Assembly (NCBI GenBank): GCA_946803715.1
Contig: CAMPET010000011.1
Location: 395,400 to 459,399 of the forward strand
From: Beroe ovata
Taxonomy: Eukaryota > Ctenophora > Nuda > Beroida > Beroidae
Direction of reading: 5' to 3'
Length of the DNA: 64,000 nucleotides
Part shown: positions 1 to 43,955 of the stretch, piece by piece
Numbering within the stretch: position 1 is the first letter of the stretch
Layout: each line of letters begins with the position of its first letter
The notes under the pieces: model-generated
What the model was told of the DNA's origin: nothing
Databases searched by the model: none
What the model saw: the letters and a program-made list of their open reading frames with translations, nothing else
Position numbers and translations under genes: made by a program

Positions 1-540
1 AAAAAATTTTCCTCGAATTTCTGATCTCAGTATCGGTAGAAATGGAAGTGAGTGACTCCACACTTTTATACTCCGATTTTGGAGGTCCCTAATGGAGACT
101 TAACAGACACTTAGAGCGCTAATTTTTCACCAAATCATCTCTCCTACTCTCAGACTACAAGTATCAGCCCTTTTTATGATCAATCAGTATTCATACGAGC
201 CGTAAAGCCACGCCCAAATCACGATTTCAAACCCGTGGGAAGCAAGAGGTGTAAAAACACGAAAATCAATGGGACACACCGACACCAAAAATTATTTTAC
301 CTGAAAATAAAGTTAGAATAAGTGTTTCCGGCTTATTTTTTGACGTAGAATCCGAATCTGCAAGAATTATTGAGCTAACTTTTCGAAAAATAGGTCAAAA
401 ATTACATTTTCGTCTCACATGTGAGTCTCGAAGTCACGTGACGGACAGCACCTCAGGCAAGGAAAAAAGTGCTACAATTCGGCCGAGAATCGATTCAGCG
501 TCCAAAAAGACGCAGGAATCGATGGTATTTGTATTGAAGA
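1..540 (-). repeat. Diverged inverted copy of the 546-bp repeat
   Basis: Read on the minus strand, this stretch follows the tandem unit found at 32820-34815 block by block: the TATAAAAGTGTGG-type block near 60-80, the cattgattttcg block near 265, and the ggacgctgaat block near 500. It is clearly diverged, with several substitutions and small indels per line, so it is an older dispersed member of the family. It probably continues beyond the left edge of the window. I see no gene in it. Confidence 0.8.
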
Positions 541-544
541 CCGA

Positions 545-985
545 CGATAGGTTCCCAAGTCAAGGTCCGCCATTACCCTTTATCCACAAAGAGGTCAGTT
601 TCAGTTAGTATTTGAGGATAGCTCCTAAACGGATTAACCTATAGTCTTGAAACTTTCACCATAACTCACGGGTTATTAGAAACTCGGACTCCCAAAATTT
701 CACGTCAATCCGATAATCAGCTACCAAGTAAAGGGCCGCCATAACCCTTATCCGTTCAAAACATGCAAGTTTGAGTGAGCATTTGAGGATAACTCCTATA
801 CAGATTGAACTATAGTCTTGAAGCTTCTATCATAGCTCAAGGACCATTAGAAACTCGGACAACCAAAATTTCATGTCAATGTGATAATCGGTTCCCATAG
901 TAAGGTCCGACATAACGCCTTATCATTGTTCAATCGCTATTCTCAATTTAAATCCCCATTCGTTTTTACAGATTATCATTTTATG
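545..985 (+). repeat. ~170-bp satellite units upstream of the first receptor exon
   Basis: About three degenerate units of a ~170-bp repeat, recognisable by the blocks ttgaggatagctcc, gaaactcggac, caaaatttcacgt and ggttcccaagt. The same unit fills intron 2 of the receptor gene (1785-2640) and occurs once more at 4150-4325. Confidence 0.85.
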
Positions 986-1049
986 TAGCCCGCAGCAGGT
1001 ATGTCTGTCGTGAACACTGTTTAAAACTNAGCCTCTCTACCTTTCCCAG

Positions 1050-4033
1050 ATTTTGATGGGTTGCCCTACCAAAATACGACATGCCAGGTGGTGGCATTCT
1101 TGGCTCACTACTTCCTCATGACATACTTTTCTTGGATTTGCTGCTGCACCCTCATGGTGAAAACTCAGGTACCTAACTACACTTCTCTAGATTACGGATG
1201 TTTCTGTTTGTTTTTCTCCATAATTTTTACACCAATCTGCCACTATACATTTATACTCTGGCATTCTAAGACTATCAGGCACCCTTAAAGACAGTTTTAC
1301 ACATGTCTCAAACCATTTATTGTCAGTTTTTGACCAGAAACTGGCAGCTTATTAATCTACCTCATGTTCCGATGCTTAACGAGTGTACTTTCTCGCGCGC
1401 TTCAGGGAAATGTTTTCGCGCGCGACGCGAACTGGATATTGAGATTTCTGTGCGACCGATTGAGCGTGTGACAATGACATGAACATTTTTCAAGGAAACC
1501 CCCTCAAACGAATTCCCCACTTCAGATTGTTGATGCTGTGAAGAGTTTCGGTAAAAAGGACAAGAACCTGGTGAAGAAGTGTATCTTGTTCAGTTACGGG
1601 GTTCCAGTATTGATTCCTAGTCTGGCACTGCTTGTCGACCACCTCATTCAGACCAGTTACAGCGGATCGGTGAGTGATACAGAGACTTCTAGAACATACT
1701 TCTATCCTGCAAATGTAGAACGATTGTCCTGCAAAATTCTCTCATTTCTTCACCTCAATTTTCCCCATACCTGTTCTTCACATTTCAATGTGAGTGAGCA
1801 TTTGAGGATACCTCCTCTTCAGATTCAGCTACAGTCTTGAAACTTCTATCACAGGTCAAGGACCATTAAAAACTCGGACAACCAAAATTTCAAGTCATTC
1901 TGACAATCGGTTCCCAAGTTAAGGGCCGACATAGCCCCTTATCCGCTCCAAAAATGTCAGATTGAGCGAGCATTTGAGGAAAGCTCCCAAACGGATTGAG
2001 CTATAATCTTGAAATTTCTATCACAGGTCAAGGAACATTAGAAACTAGGACAACCAAAATTTCACGTTAATCTGATAATCAGTTCCCAAGTTAAGGGCCG
2101 CCATAGCTCCTAATCCACCCAAAACATGTCAGTTTGAGCGAGCATTTGAGAATAACTCCCAAACAGATTCAGCTATAGTCTTGAAACTTTTATCAAAGCT
2201 TAAGGACCATTAGAAACTCGGACAACCAAAATTTCACGTTAATCTGATAATCGGTTCCCAAGTTAAGGGCCGCCATAATCCCTTATCCACCCAAAACATG
2301 TCAGTTTGAGCGAGCACTTGAGGATAGCTTCCAAACGTATTGAGCTATAGTCTAGAAACTTCTATCGCAGGTCAAGGAACATTAGAAACTCGGACAACCA
2401 AAATTTCACGTTAATCTGATAATGGGTTCCCAAGTTAAGGGCCGACATAGCCCCTTATCCGTTCAAAACATGTTAGTTTGAGCGAGCATTTGAGGATAGC
2501 TCCCAAACGGATGGAGCTATTGTCTTGAAACTTCTATCACAGGTCAAGGACTGTTAGAAACTCGGACCAACAAAAATTCTCGTTAATTTGATTATCAGTT
2601 GCCTAGTTAAGGGCCGTCATACCCCTTAATCCATGAGTTTGAGCGAGTATTTTTATCTTTCCTCTCTGGCAGGAGTACGACAACCCACTCCACTACATTC
2701 GGAAGGACGAATGCTGGTACGAGGAAATCTGGCTCTACTCCTTCATCCTCTTTCCCATCTACGTGTTCATGGCACTCAACATTGTCTTCTTCGTCATGAT
2801 TATGAGAGTGTTGGAAAACTCGAGAAGGAGAGATGATGCGAACTCGCAGCGGGTGAGGATTTCGGGGTTTTTTGGGGGTATTTTTGGGCGGAGGGATGTG
2901 TTACATGCTAGATACCTTAGTGGTCGCTGATCAGTGATCAGTTGTGTCCGCCATTTGACCAATGACCATTTGTGTGTCACTAATTGAGTAATTTACTAGA
3001 GTGTCACCAATTGAGTAATTTACTTAAGTGGTGGTTCATATCCTCCTCCACTTTCAGAAGGTCCTAAAGGCTGGTTTTGCGTTGGCATTCACCCAAGGAT
3101 TGCCCTGGCTTATCCATCCTGGAGTCCTTCAGGGAAGCTTCGCTCCCATGATATTCCAGTACCTGTTCTTGATAACCTTCGGACTTCAGGTTGGTCTTGT
3201 CAACATGATTATGTTGCCATGGCTGCACCAATATGCCCAAATATGGTATAATGAGCAACATCATACCAGGGTCCAGGACTATTTCTATTCAATGTTCTCC
3301 TACAAGAAGAGGTCATGAAGAATCTCTTCTCCCAAGTGAACATGGAGACTCCATCTCTTTTCCTCAGTGTTGTCCCCTCAAAGGGAAGTCGGGGGTCCGG
3401 GAATACCACCAAAAAGACGAATTCATCGGTAAAAATACACTATCTTTTTCTCTGTAGTCTTTTTTTCTCTGTTCTCTTTTTTTCCGATTTGCATGTCGGC
3501 ATAGATGAGGCGTTATTCTACTTTTGTGCTAATCATCACCGTATGCCAAGATAGAGATGAATTGCTAAGAAAGACTTGCAAGTCTTTTCCTGTCATTTCA
3601 AATACAGCGCCGCAGATAACCGCTATCGCAAGCTGATGCTAGATTAGGAAACATTCTCTTTCTCCTTCTTTTTTTCTATTTTTCCGTCTCTTCTCAGGCA
3701 ACCATGAGGGTATTTAGTACCGAGGAGAAGTGCTATACTAATAGTCTGTAAGTCAGTTCTCGTGATTTGCTGTGCATTGTTACGAAATATCTGTGTGTTT
3801 TTCCATGGAAAACATACCTATCTTGTTTTTACAACCAAAGACAAGAGCTATACTTCACAAAAATTGATTGCTTAGTATGGGAAATCTCTCGAATATTCTA
3901 TTTTTACCATACTTTTTGTCACTATCTTGCATCTCCCCTTCTCTGCAGGGCACTAAGCCATCTAACGTCTCACGGCGACGAGGGAACTATAGATGACGGA
4001 TTAATCTACAAAAACTTAGAACCAAAAAAGTGA
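1050..4033 (+). CDS. Class B-like (adhesion/secretin-type) 7TM receptor, 3' part
   Basis: Partial gene, TM3 to the C-terminus. Exons: 1050-1168, 1526-1669, 2673-2852, 3058-3189, 3270-3428, 3698-3747 and 3949-4033. All junctions keep frame and the stop is TGA at 4031. TM3 carries the conserved Cys followed by AHYFLMTYFSW. TM4 has a YGVP motif. A Cys-Trp pair (DECWYEE) precedes TM5. TM6 contains FTQGLPWL. TM7 is completed only when an 80-bp intron (3190-3269) is removed, giving LQGPGLFLFNVLLQEEV, which matches the family's lnxxQGxxiFxF...eV pattern. The tail is short and hydrophilic, ending IYKNLEPKK. In this family the receptor couples extracellular adhesion or peptide signals to G proteins. 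TM1-TM2 and the ectodomain are upstream of the window or lost at the gap at 1029. Family is secure at class level; the subfamily and ligand are unknown. Confidence 0.75.
1785..2640 (+). repeat. ~170-bp satellite array in receptor intron 2
   Basis: Five or more head-to-tail units. The block ggttcccaagttaaggg recurs near 1910, 2080, 2250 and 2425 with a degenerate form near 2600, so the period is about 170 bp. Units differ from each other by a few percent. The array fills nearly all of the intron between the exons ending at 1669 and starting at 2673. Confidence 0.9.
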
Positions 4034-4047
4034 GTGCATGTGTGACN

Positions 4048-5257
4048 GTAACTGAGATGAAGGGCGGCAGAGATGTTGTCCTTCAACCTCTCCAACTCTT
4101 CCATTGCCTCTTCCCAGTTTTGCTGCCAAGAGGATTCATGATTTGTAATAACTTGAAGGGCCGACATAACCCCTTATCTACTCTTTACTGGTCAATTTGA
4201 GTGAGCATTTCAGGATAGCTCCAAAACGGATGGACCGATTCATTTGAAACTACTACCGTAGCTCAAGGATCATTAGAAACTCGGACAACCAAAATTTCAT
4301 TTTAATTCGATAATCGGTTGTCGCAGTGGGTAGGTATTATTAGCTCTTAAACATCTGAATTTCAATTGGTTTTCGTTTTCGTTTCATAACGAACATTCCA
4401 ACTTTTTCCGTATCAATGTTCAGAAAAGGAGGTGGTTAAATTCTCTCAGCAGTGCTCACCTGCAAGATTTCACTCGCTAATTTACCCCACTGTGCACTAC
4501 TGTAGAATTTACTGTCGGCTGGGGCCAAGTTTCGGTAGAAGTCAAGGTTAGAGCTGGCAATGGCATAGTTTCCAACGTCATACCTGTGAAGGGAGGTTGA
4601 GAGTCGCAAGGGGGGATGGGAAAAGGGTGGTGCATAAGAAGGACGGAGGAAAAAATGTGCTGAGGGAGCCTTACCAATTCAGACATAATATGATGTTTTG
4701 ATGACGTCATACTCACATGAATTTCCCGTATTTGAACACGTCATCCAGCTTGACTCTGTCAAACTGATAGTGCTCAGTGAGATAATCCCAGAGCTGCTGG
4801 CTATCTCTATGCTTCTCAACCATCTCGGAAACCTGTCAACAACATGTTAACAGAAACCAGTGACCACAAAAGAAGGTGCCAATATGATGTTACCATGGTC
4901 CATGTTAACATGATGTTAGCACTTAACATGGTGACATGTTAACATATTATGTAAGTGTCGTAAGGATGACAAAACATGATGCTGTTACCAACTCACATCT
5001 TTCTTTGAGAACAGCTCAATGACATGGTTACTTTTCTCCTGGAGCGTTGTAAGCTGTCGGACAACATCATTCCTCTTTTCATGTAGCATCTCTGGGGGCT
5101 CCTCGTCAGGGTGTAGAGAGTGGAACACATCGATTGTAAAGTCCACCATGTTTGTGTTCTGGAGAGGTGGGTTACTGAGAGTTACTATAGTATGTGTGTG
5201 TGTTTGTGTGTGTGTTTATGTACTGTGTGTAGTGTGTACTGTGTGTGTGTGTGTGTN

Positions 5258-13193: not shown

Positions 13194-15029
13194 ATGACTT
13201 GGGGCCTGTTGTTATTGACTCTATGTATTGGCTCCTTGAGTACAGGTCAGACTTTCCTTTCATATCTGTTTATTGCCTTCTTGTCCATCTCCAGTTCAGA
13301 ATAAATATCATTTAATCATTACATGATAGCTCAAACTGTAAACAGGGGTTCGATCATTGTGTTCCCGTGAGGCATTTGAAAGCTCCTGGGAGCACGGATC
13401 TGTTAATTGGATCAAGTCAGCGAATGGAAGTGCACCAGGACACCTGAGATGTGACAAGGGATATGTATTTTCTGGAGCTTATGACCTTGTCTACTGTGAT
13501 GACACGGAAAGCAAGTATGTGAAACAAAGCAAGGATTCCAAGTGCTTAGAAGATGCCTATGGTGAGCTTGATTATTATTCGCATTATTTAAACTCATTCT
13601 ATTAACTCAATCTTATGTAAGGTACAGTGAGTTAAGTAATTGAATTGAGTGAGTTTAGAATATAGGGTTGATTAAGGGTACTCTCAGTTCGGGACAAGAA
13701 TGTGACATTCCAAGGACAAGTTTACAAGTTTGAGAAAATTGATGTTGGAAAGAAGACTTATCAGTATCCAGTACTCAACCCCAACATTACTTACGTTGTG
13801 ACCACAAATTACACTGCCTCCAATGTAAGTTTGATTTCACAAATTAGCTTACCCAAGTTAGCTAAGCACGTAAAGCTGAATAATGCTTTTTTCAATCGTT
13901 CTTATTTCCAGCTACTGTTCATGTGCTATCGATTTTTAATTCAAGTCACGACTTTTTCTCTGGATTCCTCTCTCATTCATTGCCCTCCCCAGCACACACC
14001 TACAATCAGAGTGAGAGTCGGCCTTGTTGGCAAAGTTAAGCAGCCTGTACTTGTCAACATACAGCAGTCAACAGAAAGTGTGGGCTTTGAACTGCCACTC
14101 AAAGTTGTAGGAAAAGCGTCTAAAGAATTAGGGTGAGCTCCATTTCATGTCCAGGGTTTGTGTACTGAATAAATAGAGTAAGTGTATTGACTATTGGTGT
14201 CAAATCATACATGTTGTAATAAGTGTCCTGCTCAAGTAATAAAGATGTTGTTGTAGCTATAGTAGGGTCTTTTCGAAGAGATGTTTTAGTATTATAATTT
14301 CGAATGTGATGTACCATGTGTGTGTATGTGTCTGAGGTGAAGTAAATGAATGACTTTCGCTGTAGGGCGCATGAATCAATCTTATCCGCATGTTCCAGAA
14401 CCAGCCCTCTCATTCTACAGTGAACATTCAATAAATGTCTACCTAATAGTAGAGTGACTATACCTCAATCAATCTATTGTTAAATGAGTCACAGTGTAAA
14501 GTGTCATTAATATACGTAGTGATCTTGTGGTAATTATCAAACGTATGCCATACGTTTGACTAAGGCGATAACTGAGATGGTCACAGCTGTCAATATATCG
14601 CTCCTTTCTTTCCGAATTCTCTCCCACTATCGCGCCTTTCATTGTATAACCACGTAACGTGGTCCACGTTGTTGACACTGTTTTGATTGAGCTTAAATCG
14701 GGCGTGACAAGGATGAATAGTCATTCGCCATTCATTCACTGTCAAAGCAGGAAATACAATATTAAAATTACTATCTAGTTGAGTTCATGGGGTTGTTACA
14801 GCTAGCAGCGTGCAAAGATTGGTGATATATCATAAATTGCTTTCACTGTCAAAAATAAACAAGGCTTATCACCATTCATGACCAAGCCGGCACTTAGCTG
14901 ATGATGATCAGTGACATGATTTAAGTGAAATAGAAAGAAACAATGGCTTATCTACACCTTTGATTACGGCGATATGATATTGTATTGCGATAGTGCACTG
15001 TGCAATTATACCTAAAAGGTACACAGAGT

Positions 15030-15060
<31 letters not shown>

Positions 15061-18000
15061 GGACACAGTACACACGATTGAATTATAAAGTTGTGCTTTT
15101 GGGACTCTAGAATTTCTTGTCAAAGACAGTGGTGTCAAGGACAGTACTTATGTTATCATCAAATTATTCACGTTACACATTCATTGTATGTGAAATATCA
15201 GATTGCAGTGGTTTCTGTTTAGTGTAACAGGTGTGAGAGATAAGAAACACTGGAATATAGCATGAATATTGTCATAATGTATGTTCTAGACGTTTTTCAA
15301 ACCTGCTTTTAGCACACTGATCACACATAACCATACACCTCTTTGCTGACCAAATGAAATTCCTCAATATAGAAGGGATATAGAAACATGATTCTTAGAA
15401 CAGCTGAACAGTCATTCTATTATCAGTAATACTTGCAAAATTAAAGTAATTCTAGCAATCACTACCTACTCAATGTTCGTTTATCACCCTTAACTTTCGA
15501 TACACTGGCCTACCATAACAGTGTATCACAGAAGACTGACACGCTACCCACGCTTTTCTATCAGGGGATCAGGTCCATCGTGCATCGAGCAATCACCGTA
15601 TGACTGCTTCCTCTTACTAGAGTCGCAGCTCTAAACCTTACATTCATAAACCCTTAATATCGGGTTAATATCCATTCCTAAAATACCCTATAATCCCGAT
15701 GCTCATTTACCACCTAACTCTTGCCCCAATCCTTATTCCCAAGTTTCACCAGTTCTCCATGAGATTGCCCCGGTTAGAAAGCTGGATTCTGAAAAATGCG
15801 ATGGGTTTTCGTAGAGTCCCCTGCGGTTCTGGCAAATTTCCAACCCTTTTTATGAATGGCTGTCAGGTATAGATCAAAATATGGATTGCGACGTAGGGCG
15901 CGAACGCCGATCCGGATTTTTGTGGAGGCTGATATTTTTCACACGCGCGTTCATTTTCAATATTCGTAGATTTCAAGACCAGTGACTGCCCTTTGTTTGT
16001 AGGCAGACGCCGAGCATTCGAGCAAATACCCGAGTAGGTAGACCCTGCTGTTATTTCGGGATTGTCCCATTTCTCAAATACGTAATAAGCCGAGGGGAGG
16101 GGTATTCGAATGATTATATATAGGTAGGGCAGAGGCTGCATGTAGTGATAAAGATGTACTCCAAATATGATGGGAAGGGGGGGGCTAAATGGCCACCCAG
16201 TGTGGTGTAAACGCTCCTTCATTGCCCTTCCCAAGTCCCTAAAATCTGAGCTCGCCCTCCAAGGAAAATGCAAACAAGTCTCCATCGATTCATTCAGTTG
16301 TATTTGCTGCTAATTTCTTGCCATGTTCTTGATTTGTGTTTGATTCCCGTGTTTATTTCAATTGCTCTGTTCGATTACGTGAATTGTCCGGTTTTATCCT
16401 CCCGCGCTATACCCCGGCTCATTCTCAGGATGAACTACACAACGACTGTCCGTGAGATGTGCAACACACGCAACCTATCGGAAGTTAACCGGGAGGAAAC
16501 ACTACTCATCACAATTCTCTCGCAGGAACCACCAATTCACGTGCATAATCCCAACTTTTCCGATCCAAATATCACGATTAACGTGAGGGTAGCGCAGGAT
16601 GCATTCCGACCGCTAGGTGAAATACACTCTGCGCGCGCGGCCCCAAACGAGGATCAATGGTTCTTCTTCTCATGGGCTGGAGTGGATCGTGCGATACAGT
16701 TTGTGGTGGTGAACATAACATCACCGACTCGCCAGTGTGCCACCGTGGCCGTCAGGAACACCAGCTGTGCTCTGAACAAGGAAAATATCCTGGAATACGA
16801 CCATGGTCTACACATGACAATGACACGGCGAGCAGCTATTGTGGTGCCACGGGATAAATACCCCGAGGTTTTCTACGTTTCCGTGCTCTCGGAGATCGAC
16901 GATGAGCCGTGTGGGTTGCCAGCCAATTCCACGGGCCGGAGTCGGACAAAGAGTTTCGTGTTGAACATTCACCAGCACAATGAATCAGTGGGCTTTATGT
17001 TCCTGCCGCTTCTCATCATACCGATATGTTCGTTAGTCTTCATATTCGGGTCCATCTATCTGAAGTACAGCAATGAGAAGGACAAGAGGTCGGGGGAGAG
17101 TCGATACTCGGAGAAAGACCGATCAGACACATTAGAATCAAATAGTCCCGCGCAAATACAAGCTAACGGCACGGACGATAGACGAGCCACACTAGAATCA
17201 CTGAGTGACCAACTCATGCCGATGACGATTGTCGGTTTTGAAGTGCCCCACACCCGGGTCGACTTCATACCGCTCATAATCTCGCTCATCATACTCCCAG
17301 TTTTCCTAGACGTGCTGTCTAATAGGATGGACCAGTACCACAAATACGGGATGTTGGACTCTTGCCAATACAACATGGAGTGCAGTTTCCCCGTGGGTTA
17401 TCTTCCTGATGTCGGGCGAGCTGTAACCAGTCTCTCCTACGTCTTTGTGGGCTTCACACTACTTCTCCTGGTCTTCACACATCACAGACGAGCGAGACTT
17501 CAGAACGTATCCGATAGTGTGATGGGAGTTCAACACGATTACGATATGCTGCGAGCCATTTCATACTGCCTCATATTCCAAGGTTTCATAGGGTTCACAT
17601 ACCATGTGTGTCCGAACGAAAGTGTCGAGTCTCTCGCCGAGATCTTCTTCCTGATTGCAGTCTCGTACACGTGTCACAAGATTTACCAGAACCGACACCC
17701 TGACGTCCGTCATCAAGTCTTCACCCCGATCTACGTGACGGTGTTTTTTGTCGGAATGCACGGTATTGTGAGTGTGCCCATCCATCGCGAGTCCATCGTC
17801 ACCTGGGTTATTTTCGGGGGTATCCATGTCCTCCTTACGATCACAGTTCCGATCCAATTCATACTCCTGGAAACATTTTCCGTCTCTCCACACCCGTACC
17901 TCGTTTACCAGCAATTGCCCATGCTCCGGGCCAAGTTTTCCAAAATTCCAGCCACCCAACGGATCTGCCTCCTCGTTGGATTCCTTCTCAACTTCCTCTT

Positions 18001-21000
18001 CGCCATTCTGTTCTGTGTCCACCAACCACCCAACTTCAAAACATACCTCATCCCATGTTTTGTACTCAACCTACTCCTCTACCTCGGTCATTACCTCGCT
18101 ATGAAAGTTCTCCATCACCGGGAATCGATATCATCTCTGTCCGCCTCTCTGGCCATCCTCTCTCTCCTCCTCTGGTTCTTTGCTCTTTATCACCTCATTT
18201 TCCACACCAGCATCTCACCTGGAATAGCACCTGCCATTTCCCGGGAAGGTGCTAAACCGTGCGTTGTGCTGGATATGTTTGACGGGCATGACGCTTGGCA
18301 CGTCCTCAGCTCGGCTGCCATATTCGTAACGGCGTTTTTGGTGATGATCGTGGATGATAGACAGCGTTATGTGCAATCGTGTCATTTACCCGTGTTTTAA
18401 ATGAGTTCTCTGAAACGGCTTGTTCAAATGTGATAAGAAGCAACATAGTAGTGGTTTCTGTGTTAGTGGTGTAAGAGGTGGTTTCAGATATTTAATTTCA
18501 GTTGAGTGTTGGTAGTAGTATTTTAAGTTCACTGTTACTGTAATATTATTTCTCGATTTTGGTGTGTCGTCGATGATCAAGTTATAACGATGTTATTGTG
18601 ATAGTTTTGTCTGATTGAGAGTAGTAAACGAGATATTTCAAACAGTATAATTTGAAGATATAGTGTTCCCAACGATTCCGGACAGTTTTTCATAAACAAT
18701 TCAAAATACTGTTAACTTCCGGTGTTCGCAACAATGTTTATTAATTACTTAATTAATTAATTAATCTGTAACTTCTGACACAGGGCCCTGCATGAGCAAA
18801 CAATAGAATTGTGCCCTCTTGAGTTGGACTTGGACGATAATGGAAAAGACATTCCATTGGAGGAGTATGTCAAAATCGTGCTCAATGGCGGTGGTGCCAC
18901 AGCCCCAGGTAATGTCTGCTAGTGAGGTGTCAACTGTCACTATAGTAACATGCGGTGTCACTATAGTAACATGTGGTGTCACTACCCCACTATAGTAACA
19001 TGTGGTGTCACTATAGTAACATGTGGTGTCACTATAGTAACACGTGGTGTCAACTGTCACTATAATAACATGTGGTGTCAAGTGGTGAGGTTGTATCCGG
19101 GTGTGAGGTTTCAGACGGGCGGTATTCAGGTACCAAGGAGGCAGTAATGACTGCCCAATGAGTATACATATCACTCTCTCTCTCTCTGAGTGATGGTATT
19201 TTTGACAGAATTTAATCATTCTCTACTTGATTGTATTCTCTATAAAATATCCTAGTCACGCTTTGCAGGGAAGGAGCCGAGAATTGATATCCACGCGTCA
19301 GCAGTGGAACACCTTGATCTAAGTCCGGGCAAGTCAATCGGACCTACAAACGTGAGTACATCAATATGAAACTGATGATAATGACAGAGTTATGAAACTG
19401 ATTTTAGTGTGAAATATTGAATATAGCTCTCCTCTATCTGTTTTCCCAATACCGCACTCCAGTTGCCATTGACTGTGTTGTGCAGGTGTTGGAGACAGAA
19501 ACACTTGTTTTCCGGTACAAGTGGCCGACTGACAACAGCATTGAAGAAGTGGGAATTCTTGTTTCTCACTTCAAAGGAGGTATATATAAGTGAGAAACTT
19601 ATCCACTTCTTTCACATTAAGTGATTCCGATTGACTCTGAACTTCGAGTCATTGAATGGAACACATTGAATCGAACACAGTACTTATCATTGTGACATCT
19701 TATGGCAGTGGTACACCCTCATTTCAAATATCAGAGTACCATATATCGAAGCATCATTTCACTTGTTAACTTCATCGTACTACACCCCTTCAAATTATCG
19801 TTTTGCCAGATCAAAACCAAAAGGAAGGTGTGGGAGCCGATGTATGTGCCAAGCTGTCATTGCGGAGTGGGAAATGTCCAATGGAGGAGAGAGGGGTTCA
19901 TGAGCTCACTTTTACGAGGTGTGTATGTGTGTGTGTGTGTGNNNNNNNNNNNNNNNNNNNNNNNNNNNNNNNNNNNNNNNNNNNNNNNNNNNNNNNNNNN
20001 NNNNNNNNNNNNNNNNNNNNNNNNNNNNNNNNNNNNNNNNNNNNNNNNNNNNNNNNNNNNNNNNNNNNNNNNNNNNNNNNNNNNNNNNNNNNNNNNNNNN
20101 NNNNNNNNNNNNNNNNNNNNNNNNNNNNNNNNNNNNNNNNNNNNNNNNNNNNNNNNNNNNNNNNNNNNNNNNNNNNNNNNNNNNNNNNNNNNNNNNNNNN
20201 NNNNNNNNNNNNNNNNNNNNNNNNNNNNNNNNNNNNNNNNNNNNNNNNNNNNNNNNNNNNNNNNNNNNNNNNNNNNNNNNNNNNNNNNNNNNNNNNNNNN
20301 NNNGTGTGTGTGTGTGTGGGAGGGGGTAAACCAAGGTTATATTTTCACTCTCTCTCAGGCAAGCGTTCGTGAGTGTGAACAGGCTCGACAAGCGAATGGA
20401 ACGGTTGAGAGACGGCTTCCTGGTTGTGATCAGTGTTATGCCAGACGACTACGAGTACGTCACCAATTGACACCACAGTTCCTGACACCACTTCCACCCT
20501 GACACCACTTTCACTCTGACAATACTCTCTCACACCAGTCACCACTATCACCCTGACACCACTCTCAGACACCACTTTAACCTTGACACCACTCTCTGAC
20601 ATCACTGCCCTCCTGACACCACATTGTTACTTTCAGATGTCGTTCCAGTCCAGAAGATGCAACAAGTATGGGGCGAACTAAGAGCATCGAGGTTTTCGAC
20701 AATACTGATCAGATCAAAATACATACGACTGAAAACAACCACATTGTCAAATATCCATCTCATTGACACCATCGTCAATCCCGTCATATCTAAGTATTGA
20801 CACCACTCATGTACCCCAGATTTCGCTGTCAGAGCGACCTCAACAATCCCATGTGTATCTCGCTATCCCGATCGTTATGTGCTGTATTCTTGTTGTATTG
20901 ACCTACCTCTTCTACGTTCTGTTCATCAAACCTACGGTAAGCACTGTAGTTCAGTGGTAAGCAGTAAGCACACTGTATGACTCTGTTATACAAAGCTCCA

Positions 21001-24000
21001 ATATACAGTGTTCAGAAATGTCATTCTTGGTAACTCTGCCCGTGCTCTAAAGCTTGCACGGAGTTGACCACCATTCAAACGTCGTTCAGAAGGGCGTGGC
21101 CATGACCGCCCATATGAAACATACTTTATCAAACCGAGTACTCTCTCAAAACGCATGATTCTCAATATCTCTCACACTTATACCTCTCTCTCTCATCGAG
21201 TCTAGAAATATGAAGAATTGGATGAAGAAATTGTCGATGTTAGCAGTGATCAGAACAAACTCATTGCCGAGATTGCTGTCGATCCTCCATTTGAACCCAA
21301 AATGGCTGAAATCAACCCCAAAATGGTAAGTCTGTGTGTGTGTGTGGTGTGTGTGTGTTTGTGTNTGTGTACTGTGTGTGTGTGTGTTTGTGTGAGTGTG
21401 TTTGTGTGTGTCTGTGTCTGTGCGTGTGTGTGTGTATGTGTGTGTGTGCACTGTGCCTGTGTCAATGTAGTATTCACGACTTCTCACTAGGTTGATCTAG
21501 AGGAATGTGCGGATGTTGATCTCAATGGTGGACCGAGCAGAGCCGCGCAAGAAAACAGTGATGATAGTGCTGGTAATGTTCTTTCCAAGATATTGCAAGT
21601 TCTATTACTCAAGCTAAGAGAAATCTTCCGCCCGATCAAGAAATTGTTGCAAACTCTGAATTTGAAATACCCAAAAGTTTTCTCAAGGATATACTCAAAA
21701 GTTTTCACAAAGAAATACTCAAAAGTGTTCACCAACATCCTGGGTAAACCATATTGTGACAATCGCGACGCGATTTGCAGACTAACTTTCCCGTCTCCCG
21801 GAGTAAAACTCGCCTCCCTCATTCTAAATTTTGAAGGGAGAACTAGTCTCCCTCATACCCAAATGTCGGGGATACCTTACCCCCAACTCCCTCCTCGCAG
21901 ACGACATGATGCCCGATTTTATGCACCAATCGTTCACACTGTCGGGGATACTGAAGAAGGTAAAGGAGAATGAAATGGTGGTGAACCTGACTCAGACCAT
22001 CGGACACTGCTCCGTTCCCCTGGTTGTGTTCCTCAACTGCTTCGATTCGACTGCCGTCGATATACAAGGTAGCTATCATGATTCTCTGACGTAACCGAAC
22101 TGTACTACGTAACCCACTGTACTACTTGCTCTTGTAGCTATTAATAATGATCGTCTCGTGGGATTAGTTCAGCGTAAAAAAACTGAAGATTCTGAGGTTT
22201 TTGCCCTCTGAATGCATATCGGTCGAATACTTATCTAGGTTCAATGACTCGCTACTTGAGTTGTTAAGCGATTCATGAGTGTTAACAATCCATATTTTCA
22301 GGAAATTTGAAAGAGATGACACTGGAAGGAAACCTCGATGCGTGCTACTTCAATTCTCGCTGCGCGTACCCAATCGAAATCGCTGGTAATGACAAAATCG
22401 TGACAACAACAGTGACAGTAGTCACTGTAACCCCGACAACACTGTTACCATGACAAGTTGTTACCACCCTATGTCACAGCTCTATTACCATGACACCACC
22501 ATGCTCCCGCCAGGTTACATTATCCCGGATATATCCCGGGTGACGTCCAATCTCCCCTATCTTGTCTCCGGAATCTGTTGTTACCTACTCGCGTACCAGA
22601 AGAGCAAGGCGATGCTGCCGATTAATGCCCGTGGAAAAGGTGTCAAACATGACTTTGCTCTGTTCAACGCTATCGCTTTCATCACAGGTATGATCCGGCA
22701 AGAAATGTACAGCTATTTATATTGATCACGTGACCTCTCACAGCACTGATCACGTCACCTCTCTCTCCCACAGCTTTGATCACGTGACCTCTCTCTCCCA
22801 CAGCTTTGATCACGTGACCTCTCTGTCTCACAGCTTTGATCACGTGACCTCTCTGTCTCACAGTACTGATCACGTGACCTATCTCTCCCACAGCACTGAT
22901 CGGCGTGACAAGTGCGATATACCACGTGTGCCCAAACCGCACCACGTCACGAATTGACATGTACTTCATCGAGATTCTCCTCGGTTACTACTCGCTGAAA
23001 CTGTACCAGAGTCGCGTTCCAGATATCCGAGAAGTGTACTATGCCCCTGGTGAGTGGGGGGAGAGTTGGGTGGGCCGGGGGAATAGTCGAGTGGGGGGGG
23101 AGTAGAAATACCGTGTGATGATCACGCACTATGCCCAGTTATTACTGTGTGATAATCACGCAATTTCCCAGCTATTACTGTGTGATGATCACGCAATTTC
23201 CCCAGCTATGACTGTTCGATGATCACACACTATCCCCATTCCCCAGTTATTACTATCTGTGTGATGAGTGCGGTTGAGAGGCTGCTGGGTGGAACCGCAT
23301 TGGCTTGGTATATCATCGGAGGATTCCACATTTTCACTACATTCTGGGTTTCCGTCCAACTTTTCTTCATGGGAAAAGTATCCATGAATCCCCTCGTCAT
23401 GTTCAAGGAACGACAGAAGTGAGTGTTCATGTTGATTCTATTTCTTTTGAATGAAATATGATGTGGACTACAATTTGCACCTTCACTGGACAATAGTTGT
23501 TAAAAATTATTGAATTTGTCATTTACAACGCCGGTTTCACTCAGCCTTGTAACAAATTGTACGATACAAGGCTACAAACATGTTTATTGCAGGATAATGG
23601 ACAAGATCCGCACCAGCTACTTCACTCCCGAGTTCAAATATCAAGCTGGATTCTTCACCCTTGCCCTGATTGCCACTATCTCCATTTCTATTACAGGTAA
23701 CATTGGCATAAGATGGAAGGGGGGAGATGATAGTCGACTAGATTTTATAGGATAAGAATAAAAAGCAATCGTAAATGTATGTATCACCCAAAATTATCAA
23801 CTCATTAAAACATGATAATGAGGTCAAACACATTTTCTACTTTGCTGTGGAGTGTGGGTTGTTAATCAATCTATTTATGAACCGAAAACCTCCTGATATC
23901 CCAATATCAATAATTACTACATAATTACTACATAATTACTACATAATTACTACATAATTACTACATGTTGATGTAGTAACTGCAAGTAATCATCTTGTCC

Positions 24001-27000
24001 TCGTCTCTGTCACATGTGACGGCCACTGACTTCACGTTCCGCGCCATGTGACCGAGTGGAGCTAAATTACTCTCATAATACTTCATGCAGGATCCTTTAC
24101 CATACAGCATGACGGGTTCTAATCCATGTAGAGGTTCATCAAGCCATGTCATTCCAAATTCGTTCTCGTGCATGTATTTCAAACATTTTGGTACTCTTCT
24201 ACTCGAAACCACGTTTACCATAACAGTGGCCACCAAAATGAGGGTTGTTAGTTTCATAATATATCTGTGGGATATTTAGATAAAATTGAGTATGGTGGTG
24301 ATTTGGGAAATTGATGTTCATGATAGGTCATGATATTTTGAAATTTTGGTCCTGCTCAATATTCCAATTAAATTGCACAATTTCTGATAAGTAGGCCCTA
24401 AGTTAGTGATCAATATGTAAAACAGATATATATGAATAATGTCTCCTATCATAGTCGGTGATACGTATCACAAGAACTATAAACTGACTTATTTTGTTGC
24501 GAGTATCGCTTTTTAAAGTGCGACTAAGCGGAAAACAGGTGGTTAGAAAAGACAATTACTAAATTCTCATTCTCATTTAGTCACTTCTATAAATTTATGC
24601 TGCTTTTGTTTAGGCATAGTCTGAGAAAATGACCTGGAATTATTCAGGTCACCAATAATAGGGATTATCGAAAAATGCTCGTCACCAGGTGGCATGAATG
24701 TGACGAGATTTAGACTGATCGCAGCGAAAACAATGGATATAACAATGGATATAACAATAGATAACTAAAACAATAAATCAATAATAACTATGGATGTAAA
24801 AGAAGTATTGAGAGAAGTTTAGTGGAGAATCAAGTGTAACAGCTGCGGATTTTTTGTCTTTACGAGAGACTTAATATTCACAAATAATCAGAAACAATTT
24901 ATCATTAGTCTTTCCAAGACGTTAACCGTGATATTTCTTGCTTCTAATTAATCTCTTCCAATTCCAGCATTTGTGGGAAAATGGGACGACCAAGCAATGT
25001 ACAACGTGACTGCACTTTCCGTTGATATCGTGATCTACATTGCCTACTACATTCTCACTAAGCAAGTCCTTCGCAAGGAGCAGGTAATATGGACCACACC
25101 CCACCCCTCCAAACTGCAATTCCCTCATAGACTGAAGGGCCACACCCCCCAACTGCATTACTCCTTCATAAATACTAGCACTCGCTGACATATTACCCCC
25201 ACTCCCCTTATATCCATATCTCCTCAACTCCCCTCGTTTACTCCCTCTCTCTTTCACGATTCCCTCTGATCCCTCCTTCTCACAATCCCCACATTCCTAT
25301 GTAAGTCTAATTTCATCATAACTCCCACCTCTTTCGCCCTAGCTCCCACACCCCTATGTCCTATCTCCTTACCTCAAATCCCTCCCCAGATGAAGACTCG
25401 TGTTGTTGTCATGGTCGCAGTTAGCATCATAATCTGGGCTGTCAGTTTTATCTTCTTCTTCGCATACAGGACTATCGATACTAGTGCTAGCCCTGCTGGT
25501 GAGTATTATAGCAACCACGCGTGTAGGGTTTGCATTATCGGTCCAAAATTTTTTATCGCCGATAACCGATAACAATTTTTCAATTATCGGCGATAACGAT
25601 AATTATCGGCGATAAAATTCGGTTAGAACAATGAGCCTATTTTCTATCAATCTTGTGGCCATGACTCATGCTTCATGACTTTCGTGACTGTAGATTATGA
25701 TTTATGAACACTTTAATTCTAAGAATCAAAACACGTTGTAATTTGTATATTAATTGAAAGTGAATAGTGATGTCAGATAAACATACATGATACAAGCAAC
25801 AATACACTTTACACAATATACCTACAGAGTACAGTGTTAATGACAACTTTTTCGTTTAAGTATTGTGTGTCTGGTTTTTATCTACATATTGTTGTTAGGT
25901 ACTCAATAGGTAGCTGGGAGTAAACATCTGATCCGCAATGGGGTGGGGCGAAACTACGAGACCTCCTTATTTCGTTACAACTTACCAATTAAGTATTAAC
26001 CGTTCATTATATTATGTTAAATTCAAATATGCAATGCACTATTTAATATTTTACTTATTTTTCCCAAAACCAAATGGGATTTGGTTGTTTCTGTCCGCGG
26101 CGTCTGGCGTTCTTTATTTTTAAGTCTATGATATGATAAAGAACGCGGCATGTACGACAGACTGCCGCCATCTCACCGTAGAAACACTGAAGCTTTTTCT
26201 ATTGATGTGGCGGCAGTCTGTCGTACATGCCACGTTCTTTATCATATCATAGACTTTAAAATAAAGAACGCCAGACGCCGTGGACAGAAACAACCAAATC
26301 TCATTAGGTTTTGGGAAAAATATCACTATTTTTCAGTTTTGGAGAGTGCAGTACGTCTCACTATCAAAAACTACAGATGCCGCGGGGGGCTTGCCAGCCC
26401 CCTGATATATTTACTTATATAATGGGTAGGATGAAATGTGAATACCTTTACACTTAGTTCATACGCTGACTCTTGCTGATTAAGTAAGTAGGTACTGTAG
26501 CAAATTCAGATGTTTTGATCAGCTTTACTTATCTTAATCTTATAATCAATCATTCGAGTTAGTACTAAATTTTATTGTGTGAAATCAGGAAATTCGAAAT
26601 AGTTTTTGAGAAAAAGTTCTGAAATTATCGGTTTATCGGTAAGAAATTATCGCCGATAACCGATAATGATTTCACTACGAATTATCGCCTATAATTTTAT
26701 CGCCGATATTATCGATTGCAAACCCTACACGCGTGACTCATAGCAACCACGCGTAACTCATAGCAACCACGCGTGACTCATAGCAACCACGCGTGACTCA
26801 TAGCAACCACGCGTAACTCATCAGTCATCGCAATCACACTCCTCACGAAATGACATATAATATCGTATCCTCAACCGCATATTTTAACCAGAATCCCGTT
26901 GTCTGAACAAGGCGTGTATCGGAGGGTTCCTCGACGGGCATGACTTGTGGCACTGCCTCTCGGCCATGGCTATCTTCCTCACCAACAACATGATCCTCAT

Positions 27001-27049
27001 GTTCGATGATGATCTAATTGACACCAAAACCGAGAGCACGTACTTCTGA
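13194..27049 (+). CDS. SID1 transmembrane family protein (SIDT), 22-exon isoform
   Basis: Exons: 13194-13245, 13346-13561, 13688-13824, 13993-14132, 18784-18908, 19269-19351, 19486-19579, 19810-19918, 20359-20454, 20637-20691, 20820-20936, 21206-21325, 21491-21572, 21901-22068, 22302-22385, 22514-22687, 22894-23049, 23247-23418, 23593-23696, 24968-25083, 25390-25498, 26892-27049. The total is 888 codons plus stop. A signal peptide (1-18) is followed by a Sushi-like module (~23-87) and two beta-rich ectodomains. TM1 is near 381-402, then come an acidic cytosolic loop and the conserved core: GNLDACYFNSRCAYP, SAIYHVCPN with Ser624 and His628, Asp639 in RIDMYF, and DGHDLWHCLSA with His853 and His857. 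SIDT proteins are lysosomal or plasma-membrane proteins linked to dsRNA and lipid handling. They belong to the CREST superfamily of metal-dependent hydrolases, whose Ser, Asp and three His are all present here. An acceptor-like ccctctag lies 1 nt before the ATG. Confidence 0.93.
13346..13561 (+). other. Sushi/CCP-like exon of the SIDT gene
   Basis: Exon 2 starts and ends in phase 1 (72 codons), the symmetric class typical of shuffled extracellular modules. It encodes four cysteines in Sushi spacing: CSREAF, a HGSV motif, then LRCDKGYVFSG, LVYCDD and SKCLED. The fit is by eye to the CCP pattern; the usual W before the last Cys is not obvious. Confidence 0.65.
14133..16267. other. SIDT intron 4, upstream part
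   Basis: About 2.1 kb of intron between the last shared SIDT exon and the intronless SIDT module. It contains a (CA)n run near 15031-15058 and a more GC-rich part near 15880-16260 that could hold a promoter. No gene is supported. Confidence 0.6.
16268..18400 (+). CDS. Intronless SIDT module nested in SIDT intron 4
   Basis: Uninterrupted 710-codon frame, homologous along its length to SIDT from the second ectodomain to the C-terminus: SRTKSF before TM1 (~245-264), the LDSCQYNMECSFP loop, TYHVCPN (His446), and DGHDAWHVLS (His674, His678). The Ser four residues before His446 is Gly442 and the Asp eleven after it is Ala457, so two CREST active-site residues are lost. The frame is open for 54 codons upstream of Met55. 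A good acceptor (cattctcag) ends at 16428. Used as an acceptor, it would join the four upstream SIDT exons in phase 2 to residues from Met55, giving an 838-residue protein. Alternatives are its own promoter with a start at 16268 (hydrophobic N-terminus) or trans-splicing at 16429. The absence of introns suggests retroposition of an SIDT cDNA. The intact frame argues against a pseudogene. Confidence 0.85.
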   Translation: MQTSLHRFIQLYLLLISCHVLDLCLIPVFISIALFDYVNCPVLSSRAIPRLILRMNYTTTVREMCNTRNLSEVNREETLLITILSQEPPIHVHNPNFSDPNITINVRVAQDAFRPLGEIHSARAAPNEDQWFFFSWAGVDRAIQFVVVNITSPTRQCATVAVRNTSCALNKENILEYDHGLHMTMTRRAAIVVPRDKYPEVFYVSVLSEIDDEPCGLPANSTGRSRTKSFVLNIHQHNESVGFMFLPLLIIPICSLVFIFGSIYLKYSNEKDKRSGESRYSEKDRSDTLESNSPAQIQANGTDDRRATLESLSDQLMPMTIVGFEVPHTRVDFIPLIISLIILPVFLDVLSNRMDQYHKYGMLDSCQYNMECSFPVGYLPDVGRAVTSLSYVFVGFTLLLLVFTHHRRARLQNVSDSVMGVQHDYDMLRAISYCLIFQGFIGFTYHVCPNESVESLAEIFFLIAVSYTCHKIYQNRHPDVRHQVFTPIYVTVFFVGMHGIVSVPIHRESIVTWVIFGGIHVLLTITVPIQFILLETFSVSPHPYLVYQQLPMLRAKFSKIPATQRICLLVGFLLNFLFAILFCVHQPPNFKTYLIPCFVLNLLLYLGHYLAMKVLHHRESISSLSASLAILSLLLWFFALYHLIFHTSISPGIAPAISREGAKPCVVLDMFDGHDAWHVLSSAAIFVTAFLVMIVDDRQRYVQSCHLPVF
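18401..18783. other. 3' flank of the intronless SIDT module
   Basis: AT-rich 3' UTR-like sequence that ends in the acceptor of SIDT exon 5 (cttctgacacag). No AATAAA hexamer is evident. Confidence 0.5.
18925..19085 (+). repeat. Minisatellite in SIDT intron 5
   Basis: About seven copies of a ~20-bp unit (cactatagtaacatgtggtg), some spaced by inserts. It begins 17 bp after the donor at 18908. Confidence 0.9.
19919..20358. repeat. (TG)n with 362-base gap
   Basis: SIDT intron 8. A TG repeat flanks an N run at 19942-20303. The gap is intronic and does not interrupt the coding frame. Confidence 0.95.
20465..20630 (+). repeat. gacaccact-rich degenerate repeat in SIDT intron 9
   Basis: Degenerate tandem of units around ctgacaccact, ending at the acceptor of exon 10. 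Confidence 0.8.
21325..21470. repeat. (TG)n microsatellite in SIDT intron 12
   Basis: Imperfect TG repeat with a single n at 21365, directly after the donor of exon 12. Confidence 0.95.
22735..22900 (+). repeat. 30-bp minisatellite made of splice acceptors, SIDT intron 16
   Basis: Five to six units of about 30 bp, each containing a pyrimidine tract plus cacag followed by (c/t)(a/t)(c/t)tgatcacgtgacct. The last unit is the functional acceptor of exon 17 (cag ending at 22893) and its first bases match the unit (cactgatcggcgtgac). Confidence 0.9.
23112..23265 (+). repeat. Minisatellite carrying the exon 18 acceptor, SIDT intron 17
   Basis: Units of ~32-40 bp reading cccagttattactgtgtgat plus gatcacgcaatt, three to four copies. 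The last copy is the real acceptor and start of exon 18 (ccccag ending at 23246, then ttattactatctgtgtgat). Confidence 0.88.
23911..23966 (+). repeat. 11-bp tandem repeat (ataattactac)
   Basis: About five copies ending over the stop codon region of the nested minus-strand gene. Confidence 0.9.
23961..24257 (-). CDS. Small secreted protein nested in SIDT intron 19
   Basis: Single open frame of 98 residues starting at an ATG. Residues 1-19 form a clear signal peptide (MKLTTLILVATVMVNVVSS). The predicted mature part starts RRVPKC and has four cysteines, enough for two disulfides, with polar and charged residues throughout. I do not recognise the family. An acceptor-like atcccacag lies 7 nt before the ATG on the minus strand. 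It lies antisense to the SIDT gene, inside the intron between exons ending at 23696 and starting at 24968. The signal peptide and the start context are the evidence that it is real. Short length and lack of homology keep confidence moderate. Confidence 0.55.
   Translation of the reverse strand: MKLTTLILVATVMVNVVSSRRVPKCLKYMHENEFGMTWLDEPLHGLEPVMLYGKGSCMKYYESNLAPLGHMARNVKSVAVTCDRDEDKMITCSYYINM
25516..26735. mobile_element. hAT-type non-autonomous DNA transposon (MITE) in SIDT intron 21
   Basis: The element runs 25524-26727, with terminal inverted repeats TAGGGTTTGCA at the left and its complement TGCAAACCCTA at the right. It is flanked by the 8-bp direct repeat CACGCGTG (25516-25523 and 26728-26735). 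TIRs of the TAGNG type and 8-bp target duplications are hallmarks of hAT elements. Subterminal DNA is full of ttatcggcgataa-type palindromes on both sides. No transposase frame is present. The neighbouring cacgcgtg-containing tandem repeat means the target duplication could partly reflect that repeat. Confidence 0.85.
26056..26322. repeat. Foldback hairpin nested in the MITE
   Basis: Two ~117-bp arms (26056-26172 and 26204-26322) are inverted copies with few mismatches around a ~31-bp loop. Outer ends are tatttttcccaaaacc and ggttttgggaaaaata. Inner ends are cagactgccgcc and ggcggcagtctg. Transcribed in either direction it would fold into a dsRNA of more than 100 bp. Confidence 0.92.
26728..26822 (+). 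repeat. ~20-bp tandem repeat (acgcgtgactcatagcaacc)
   Basis: About five units immediately right of the MITE. One more partial unit (tagcaaccacgcgtg) lies left of it at 25509-25523, so the MITE inserted into this array. Confidence 0.88.
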
Positions 27050-27314: not shown

Positions 27315-27320
27315 AATAAA
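27315..27320 (+). terminator. Candidate poly(A) signal of SIDT
   Basis: AATAAA, 266 bp after the SIDT stop codon on the same strand. Position only; no cleavage-site evidence. Confidence 0.4.
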
Positions 27321-42512: not shown

Positions 42513-43955
42513 ATGGCAATTTTGTTTCCTGCCTTCTTGATGCTGGTGATGGTGGCTAGCTTGGCAGAGTCCAAGGCTTCTATTGACGACATACCAGCTC
42601 TGTTCCAGAACACGATTACAAAGTGGGATGTCAAGGTTCGAGACAAGAGGGACCTTGCTGAGCGGTATGCCAGGCTGGTCACAATGAAGAGAGATCTGGA
42701 TATGACTACCAGTGGAGGAGAGCTACTCGATCATCTCAACAGATACTCTGTCAACAATGACGAGGAGCACGAGACTCTCATGGGTAAGATGAGGAAAAGA
42801 CGTGCTGCAGCCGTCGCTGAATCCGACGAGGTCATGCTACCAACTCTCGCCAAGAGAAGTGACGAGAGTACTGATCTTCCCCTGGAATATGAGTATTGGG
42901 AGAAAACACTTGGTCTACAGGAGCCGGTTGGAGACCAACTGGGCTGTGGAGCTTGCTGGGCCTTCCCCCAGGCGGTGGCATTACAGGCACTGTACAAGAA
43001 CCTGACTGGTGAAGAAGTGGACCTCTCGGAGCAATTCCTCATTGACTGTGCCTCTGAGGATGGACAAGGATGTGAAGGTGGTACTAGCAAAGAAGCCTAT
43101 GAGTTCATAATCAACAACAACAACTTCATTGCCAGTGAGGAAGAACTGCCGTATGAGGGATACAATATACCGTGTGAGTACAGTGACGAGGACATGACTG
43201 CAGAAAAAAGTGCTCTTAAACTGGCATGGGTGACGTATAAAGCCAATCTTCCTAAAGAAGAAACAACCATCATGACTTGGCTCCTCAACTGCCCAATTTC
43301 GATGATTACAAAAATTTCGGAAACCTACATGAGCTACTACGGAACTGGCTTGTTTGAGGACAATCTCAGTCCCAACATATTTACACATGCCCAGCTTCTT
43401 GTAGGATACACAGAGAACTCCTTTAGATTGAGAGGGAGCTATGGTACGGACTGGGGTGATAACGGCTACATTAACTACAAGCGATCCACCTTCCTGTCAA
43501 GCAGTGTCCTGTCGACAGCACACATGGTCGGCATGGCTAAAGCTCGAGACATCCAGTATGCGTTCTGTAACGATGCAGCAGTAGCCACCTGGACCGTCTG
43601 CAGAGAATCATGTCTGGCCATGAACAGTGGGGATGAGACAGGATGGGACCTGGCTGTAATTCCCACGAATATGCACAACGAGCAAGTCCGGGGTATGGCG
43701 GATGAGATGTGGCCCGGTGTTAAGAGTAAGGACAAGTTCAACTACCTGTGGATAGGTCTGTACAACCCCGAGAAGGGCTATGATTCGCACTACTGGCTCG
43801 GAGAGGTGTACAGTTACCAGTACAACAACTGGGAATACGCTACAGACAGGACAATGAAGTACACTCTCATCAACAAGAACACTGGAGAGTGGATAAGCAA
43901 GAATTCGGAAACTTTCTCCGCCCGGGGCGTGTGTAGCAAGACCACGGACTACTAA
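42513..43955 (+). CDS. Papain-family (C1) protease-like protein with C-terminal C-type lectin-like domain
   Basis: Intronless CDS of 480 residues. A signal peptide (~1-21) precedes a pro-region with dibasic sites RKRR (94-97) and KR (114-115). The C1 domain runs ~120-340: oxyanion Gln142, CGACWAF with catalytic Cys148, LSEQFLIDC, GCEGG, PYEGY, and THAQLLVGY with His292. In the block that normally reads NSWG the sequence is RGSYGTDWG, so the catalytic Asn is Gly308 and the following Trp is Tyr310. From ~351 to 474 a C-type lectin fold follows, with cysteines at 352, 363, 367 and 474, WIGL at 413-416, HYWLGEVYSYQYNNW, and a late Trp460. Its EPN/QPD and WND sugar-calcium motifs are not evident. 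Likely secreted or lysosomal, possibly digestive or immune. Activity may be weak or lost. An acceptor ctccttcag lies 5 nt before the ATG. Confidence 0.88.
   Translation: MAILFPAFLMLVMVASLAESKASIDDIPALFQNTITKWDVKVRDKRDLAERYARLVTMKRDLDMTTSGGELLDHLNRYSVNNDEEHETLMGKMRKRRAAAVAESDEVMLPTLAKRSDESTDLPLEYEYWEKTLGLQEPVGDQLGCGACWAFPQAVALQALYKNLTGEEVDLSEQFLIDCASEDGQGCEGGTSKEAYEFIINNNNFIASEEELPYEGYNIPCEYSDEDMTAEKSALKLAWVTYKANLPKEETTIMTWLLNCPISMITKISETYMSYYGTGLFEDNLSPNIFTHAQLLVGYTENSFRLRGSYGTDWGDNGYINYKRSTFLSSSVLSTAHMVGMAKARDIQYAFCNDAAVATWTVCRESCLAMNSGDETGWDLAVIPTNMHNEQVRGMADEMWPGVKSKDKFNYLWIGLYNPEKGYDSHYWLGEVYSYQYNNWEYATDRTMKYTLINKNTGEWISKNSETFSARGVCSKTTDY

Follow-up and report, generated by a model that had tools for sequence, protein, structure and literature searches.

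A SIDT gene with two predicted 3' bodies

We analysed a 64,000-nucleotide stretch of the genome of the ctenophore Beroe ovata (GCA_946803715.1, contig CAMPET010000011.1; C11:395400-459399 in our numbering), hereafter the window, taken from an assembly of 77.8 Mb in 534 contigs. It contains a gene of the SID-1/SIDT family, whose 22-exon form we name SIDT-A, and within intron 4 of this gene lies a second, intronless SIDT body (the module). The sequence makes it quite probable that a single SIDT gene here has two alternative 3' bodies behind one front. Exons 1 to 4 would supply a signal peptide, a segment rich in Cys and the beginning of the first jelly-roll domain (jelly roll 1). Use of a strong acceptor at 16428 would add the intronless exon and yield a protein of 838 amino acids, while skipping it in favour of a weak acceptor at 18783 would add exons 5 to 22 and yield 906 amino acids. 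Both bodies would complete the same jelly roll at one point of an old phase-2 intron, and both would bring the Cys that links jelly roll 1 to jelly roll 2. The 906-residue form would have a complete metal site (N, S, H, D, H, H) and the 838-residue form would lack its N, S and D. We infer that the junction from 14132 to 16429 is used, that the choice between acceptors is regulated and that hydrolase activity has been lost from the shorter form. An alternative terminal exon was already proposed in the original prediction, and it is supported by splice-site strength, by the point at which similarity to a relative of the module begins, by the position of the junction inside a domain, and by conserved glycosylation sites in proteins that have no conserved signal peptide of their own.

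In the 22-exon model every intron is GT-AG and the frame is intact to its end at 27049. The same donor (gtgagc, phase 2, after exon 4 ends at 14132) faces two in-phase acceptors, ending at 16428 (cattctcag) and 18783 (cttctgacacag), and the stop codon lies inside the proximal exon. Both downstream exons begin with G, so that exon 4 forms the same Gly codon when joined to 16429 or to 18784. A Cys is then reached in frame, as the 11th residue past the split Gly in the module (REMC) and the 10th in exon 5 (IELC). These details agree with what had been read from the sequence originally, as do the 18 further exons of the distal continuation (exons 5-22) and the 838-residue length of exons 1-4 joined to the intronless exon 16429-18400; the 888 residues given for the longer product are replaced by the 906 of the new model. 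Runs of N within 13194-27049 occur only at 19942-20303 and 21365, and therefore the stretch between exon 4 and exon 5 is free of gaps. The features of the locus are listed in Table 1.

Strength of the two acceptors

Acceptors were scored with one matrix built from the remaining 20 SIDT-A acceptors and a second to which the acceptors of another SIDT gene of this genome, C71, were added (n = 34). With the 20-acceptor matrix, the site at 16428 is the best of the 123 AGs in 14160-16429; among the 231 AGs in 14160-18784 it comes second and the site at 18783 comes 75th. With the 34-acceptor matrix the proximal site scores 11.66 bits, a value equalled or exceeded by 4 of the 34 real acceptors of the two SIDT genes; the distal site scores 2.61 bits, and six of the 34 are equally low. 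AGs scoring at least as high as 16428 are found at 9 of 63,230 positions on the plus strand of the window and at 5 of 63,230 on the minus strand, and at a rate of 4.4e-5 per position in 200 first-order Markov copies of the 5' part of intron 4. A strong proximal and a weak distal acceptor would be what a terminal exon that can be skipped requires. The original prediction had put the chance of an accidental phase match at one in three, which is correct for phase alone, but the coincidence as a whole is rarer: by our own arithmetic, the chance that such an acceptor falls in the correct phase no more than 15 bases from the border of the homologous exon is approximately 5e-4 to 1.5e-3, taking the observed site itself as the score threshold and the matrix built on 34 acceptors.

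The junction lies within jelly roll 1

The junction corresponds approximately to residue 120 of human SIDT1. In the alignment it shares its column with SIDT-A intron 4 and is four columns away from C71 intron 1 (approximately residue 124), and all three are in phase 2. Human jelly roll 1 is given as G45-K167 (PMC11208740), which places the junction inside this domain, and therefore the module alone would code only for the end of the domain, with the bridging Cys, and would need exons such as 3 and 4. The original claim that the module lacks exactly the first ectodomain thus has to be revised. On its own the module does not have two complete jelly rolls; both would be complete only with exons 1-4 joined to it. 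C130 in jelly roll 1 of human SIDT1 is bonded to C222 in jelly roll 2 (PMC11208740, PMC11137008, PMC10770124).

Exons 3-4 match residues 64-123 of human SIDT1 (shuffle p = 0.0007) and the corresponding part of C71 (p = 0.006), and they do not match the part after the junction (p = 0.49 for human SIDT1 124-193 and p = 0.69 for C71). Exons 5-7 of SIDT-A, which follow the junction, match C71 with p = 0.003 but human SIDT1 only at p = 0.13. P0002, a relative of the module, aligns to C71 from the junction onward (E = 5e-5).

Relatives of the module

A search with the module, in which the 7998 candidates sharing most words were scored, returned five metagenome proteins (P0001-P0005). They are 53-82% identical to the module and each has it as one open frame, in proteins of 637-706 amino acids. 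Among the module sequences, 276 of 631 ungapped columns are invariant. P0002 extends 50 residues farther upstream. Just after the acceptor, nine of ten residues agree between P0002 and the window (NYSTTVREMC / NYTTTVREMC); before the acceptor, similarity is not significant (shuffle p = 0.067), while a downstream stretch of equal size reaches p = 0.002, the floor of a test with 500 shuffles. The final upstream letters of P0002, FLR, are compatible with ttyctcag|G.

Five N-glycosylation sequons precede the first transmembrane segment (TM1) in all six module sequences, and a sixth, adjoining the junction, is present in both sequences that cover it. After TM1 no sequon is present in more than three of the six. 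No signal peptide is conserved among the module sequences, the open reading frame (ORF) starts of the five relatives having been examined; these starts are less hydrophobic (1.1-1.4) than exon 1 (2.77). Given five invariant sequons in proteins whose relatives have no signal-like start, a signal contributed by an upstream exon is the simplest explanation, and exon 1 has one.

Exons 4 and 17 also have relatives. For exon 4, P0006 is identical at 37 of 46 residues and lies on a contig of 683 bases; for exon 17, P0007 shows 93% identity over 40% of a 110-residue query and lies on a contig of 90,417 bases. Searches for DNA around the module relatives, covering genome contigs (67 pattern matches) and viral contigs (55), gave no relatives. 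Both bodies are old.

Family membership and the metal site

The module frame 16250-18400 matches PF13965 with E = 7.1e-80 and 269.6 bits (curated cut-off 28.7), and the 22-exon protein matches it with E = 4.8e-70. The structural cysteines C130, C212, C222, C271, C479, C485, C565 and C782 are all kept in the six module sequences. The metal site of human SIDT1 is formed by N501, S559, H563, D574, H791 and H795 (PMC11208740), and SIDT2 is described as having the same H3-D-S site and hydrolysing ceramide, with a double-His mutant being inactive (PMC10272179). All six residues are present in SIDT-A (exons 5-22) and in two other SIDT genes of this genome, C71 and C265. In the module and its five relatives the three His are kept throughout, and N501, S559 and D574 are lost throughout (N to S or C, S to G, D to A or S). 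Hydrolysis is likely to have been lost because N, S and D are missing from all six sequences, and Myomaker is likewise described as lacking Asp and Ser (PMC10272179). The 838-residue form is thus probably a SIDT family member without lipid-hydrolase activity. An AlphaFold model of the module from the six-row alignment had a mean predicted local distance difference test score of 35.3 and was unusable.

Other SIDT genes and the origin of the module

Further PF13965 matches in the genome lie at C71, C265 and C53. C71, with 15 exons, is the canonical SIDT gene; its modelled protein has 817 amino acids and scores 553 bits against human SIDT1. C265 is a further SIDT gene, intronless and of full size (L009:4940-7351, 791 amino acids), with its own start and a signal-like N-terminus, lacking the four ectodomain Cys. 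C53 (L013) holds 13 pieces that are 33-85% identical to C265 and interrupted by introns, and C265 is probably an independent retrocopy.

The module shares 23% identity with exons 5-22 and 28% with C71. A recent retrocopy of the host gene was considered and dropped at only 23% identity. The tree, which has long branches, settles the module neither with SIDT-A nor with C71 (approximately unbiased test p = 0.43 for a SIDT-A clade). The frame 16429-18400 is intronless throughout; SIDT-A and C71 share two further in-phase introns (within six columns), both absent from the module, and the module keeps the 3' splice site of the phase-2 intron common to the two genes. This old acceptor would not be present in a copy made from a fully spliced mRNA and truncated at its 5' end; the module is better explained by copying of an RNA that had been spliced only in part, or by a duplication after which introns were lost. 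The original proposal that a retroposed SIDT 3' part landed in intron 4 is therefore not upheld as it stood, given the low identity, the undecided parent and the retained acceptor. Retroposition is nonetheless plausible in general, since it is likely to have occurred in this genome with C265 and C53. Whichever event produced the module is old, because the intronless form is common to six sequences, and at such an age any poly(A) tract or target-site duplication has probably been erased. A second copy of 14133-16428 was searched for in the same genome and not found.

Alternative explanations

The module could instead be an independent gene nested in intron 4, with a trans-spliced leader, or a 5' exon private to it, joined at 16428 and with translation starting inside the module (at ATG 16430 or the Met of REMC) or in the private exon. 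We consider this unlikely. Precedent comes from the glass sponge A. vastus, for which 2432 nested genes (12.4%) and a trans-spliced leader of approximately 37 bases are reported (PMC10282587), which would lend this reading weight if the same held in the present animal; C265 is a stand-alone intronless SIDT. An ATG lies one base past the acceptor, but it corresponds to Val in P0002. The Met of REMC is kept in six of six sequences, which is weak evidence when 276 of 631 columns are invariant. A protein started at either Met would have neither a signal peptide nor the first strands of jelly roll 1, and yet the five sequons and the bridging Cys are invariant. Intron 4 offers 31 possible first exons running from an ATG to a phase-2 donor, but among those listed (15 of 31) the most hydrophobic ones have poor donors, such as GTGTTT and GTTCGA. 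A conserved start of its own with a signal peptide was not found in the module or its five relatives.

A second alternative follows the example of Drosophila mod(mdg4), in which common exons are reported to be joined to alternative 3' exons from independent promoters (PMC12692577): the module would be transcribed from its own promoter and trans-spliced to exons 1-4, producing the same 838-residue chain. This would fit all the sequence evidence for a fused product, but nothing requires it, as exons 1-4 and the module already lie in cis: they are on the same strand, separated by 2.3 kb, and the acceptor before the module is strong. We regard this alternative as improbable.

It is more improbable still that the module is a single-exon gene starting at ATG 16268, whose first residues would form a signal anchor. 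The frame is open from 16250 and contains a hydrophobic stretch, but its codon score resembles that of an intron: with codons of the module, 16268-16428 receives -0.08 per codon, and with those of SIDT-A -0.19, compared with means of -0.23 and -0.17 for intron 4 and of 0.27 and 0.07 for the module (the module-codon model being trained on the module itself). In addition, the strong acceptor lies in the middle of this frame, which has no significant likeness to the upstream frame of P0002, itself without a comparable hydrophobic stretch. Finally, the loss of metal-site residues could mark a decaying copy without function, but the intact frame and five relatives at 53-82% identity that share the losses and keep 8/8 structural Cys refute this unless all five are contaminants of one kind, and it is almost certainly wrong.

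Several observations count against two alternative bodies on a shared front. With SIDT-A codons, the lowest module windows reach intron values (minimum -0.17), and the frame 5' of the module has an ATG, a hydrophobic stretch (2.71) and a run, SIALF, in common with P0002 (the p = 0.067 given above). Only weak variants of the poly(A) signal, AGTAAA and CATAAA, follow the module. C265, another intronless SIDT gene of this genome, has a start and a signal-like N-terminus of its own. As single sequences, the first 83 residues of the module match human SIDT1 124-193 only weakly (p = 0.065), and C71 likewise (p = 0.26). The P0002 acceptor is inferred from protein letters rather than DNA, and P0001, P0003, P0004 and P0005 were called from the Met of REMC and are uninformative on the acceptor. 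Peptides of exons 2-4 and 16-17 gave one match each, neither on a module-bearing contig: P0006 and P0007 lie on contigs other than those of P0002 (108,289 bases) and P0004 (99,344 bases).

Features of the locus

Table 1. Features of the SIDT-A locus (window coordinates).
Feature	Coordinates	Strand	Basis
Shared exon 1: start codon and signal-peptide-like stretch (MTWGLLLLTLCIGSLSTG)	13194..13245	+	Gene model; core LLLLTLCIG, mean hydropathy 2.77
Shared exon 2: segment rich in Cys, resembling a sushi domain only by eye	13346..13561	+	Gene model
Shared exon 3: part of jelly roll 1 preceding the junction	13688..13824	+	Gene model; similarity to human SIDT1
Shared exon 4: jelly roll 1 as far as the junction; phase 2 end, donor gtgagc at 14133	13993..14132	+	Gene model; relative P0006
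Intron 4 of the 22-exon form, containing the intronless module	14133..18783	+	Gene model
Open frame 5' of the module (ATG 16268), read as intron	16268..16428	+	Intron-like codon score
Strong 3' splice site (ataccccggctcattctcag) preceding the module	16409..16428	+	Best-scoring AG in 14160-16429
Predicted alternative terminal exon, without introns: last part of jelly roll 1, then jelly roll 2, the transmembrane domain and a stop	16429..18400	+	PF13965; relatives
Weak poly(A) signal variants 3' of the module: AGTAAA 18623, CATAAA 18691	18623..18696	+	
Exon 5 of the 22-exon form; its weak acceptor ends at 18783	18784..18908	+	Gene model; splice scores
Exons 6-22: jelly roll 2, the transmembrane domain with all metal-site residues, and a stop	19269..27049	+	PF13965; exon 17 relative P0007
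AATAAA poly(A) signal 3' of the 22-exon form	27315..27320	+	

The Cys-rich segment of exon 2 lies between the signal peptide and jelly roll 1 and is without a counterpart in the C71 model; no Sushi match was found in Pfam up to E = 10. In intron 21 (26080-26320) an inverted-repeat element (aaagaacg...tttgg) was spotted by eye. Its end resembles, also by eye, a stretch of the C71 locus (L012, approximately 2173-2237) that cuts the first copy of a duplicated small gene. That locus contains a tandem duplication (C71:238830-242830; L012, approximately 330-4330) of exons 9-12 together with an intronless Pro-rich small gene of the next intron. The duplication spans 1923 bases at 92.4% identity, with N adjoining the first copy, and may reflect blocks of exons used alternatively, or else an artefact of the assembly or of alleles. 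Elsewhere in the window, 42516-43952 encodes a papain-like protease in a single frame (PF00112, E = 1e-35) with an extra C-terminal region.

Comparison with known systems

Like other members of the SID-1/SIDT family (PF13965), both bodies match the transmembrane region and keep 8/8 structural Cys and the three His; unlike them, there are two bodies for one set of 5' exons, and the intronless body lacks N501, S559 and D574. To our knowledge, Myomaker has no ectodomain of the SIDT kind. It resembles the 838-residue form as a relative of the SIDT/ADIPOR/ceramidase group without the Asp and Ser that hydrolysis is believed to require, but it is a separate gene, and the part of PMC10272179 consulted mentions no second, active body made by that gene. 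In TRIMCyp (TRIM5-cyclophilin A), an intronless module located in an intron or beside the last exons is reported to be spliced to upstream exons and to replace the 3' domain (PMC2703620). The module described here differs in belonging to the same family as the part it would replace, in completing the same domain, and in being old with no traceable recent retrocopy. Drosophila mod(mdg4) also has common 5' exons and alternative 3' exons, but there trans-splicing is reported to yield over 30 isoforms (PMC12692577), whereas the two bodies here are in cis and each is a whole multi-pass membrane domain. The nested single-exon genes of the glass sponge likewise place a single-exon gene body inside the intron of another gene (PMC10282587), but the module appears to rely on host exons and an independent start is unsupported. 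Literature searches, judged by titles and the opening parts of abstracts, turned up no report of SIDT isoforms of this kind, which does not prove their absence.

Implications for the SIDT family

SIDT proteins are dimeric, and the dimer is held partly by jelly roll 1. We tentatively suggest, as a possibility that may well prove wrong, that one gene produces an enzyme-competent and an enzyme-dead SIDT that could form mixed dimers, with splicing perhaps tuning RNA or lipid handling, and that this arrangement would have been kept since before the six sequenced lineages split. If two bodies are indeed joined to one front, the locus would show that an entire multi-pass membrane body has long been retained as an alternative terminal exon, one that fills out a domain interrupted by an ancient intron. 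Whether members of the SID-1 family move RNA through a channel, by means of the lipid-hydrolase site, or both is an unsettled question. The two forms would be a natural pair that differ in the hydrolase site while sharing a signal peptide and the front of jelly roll 1, and would thus provide a built-in experiment.

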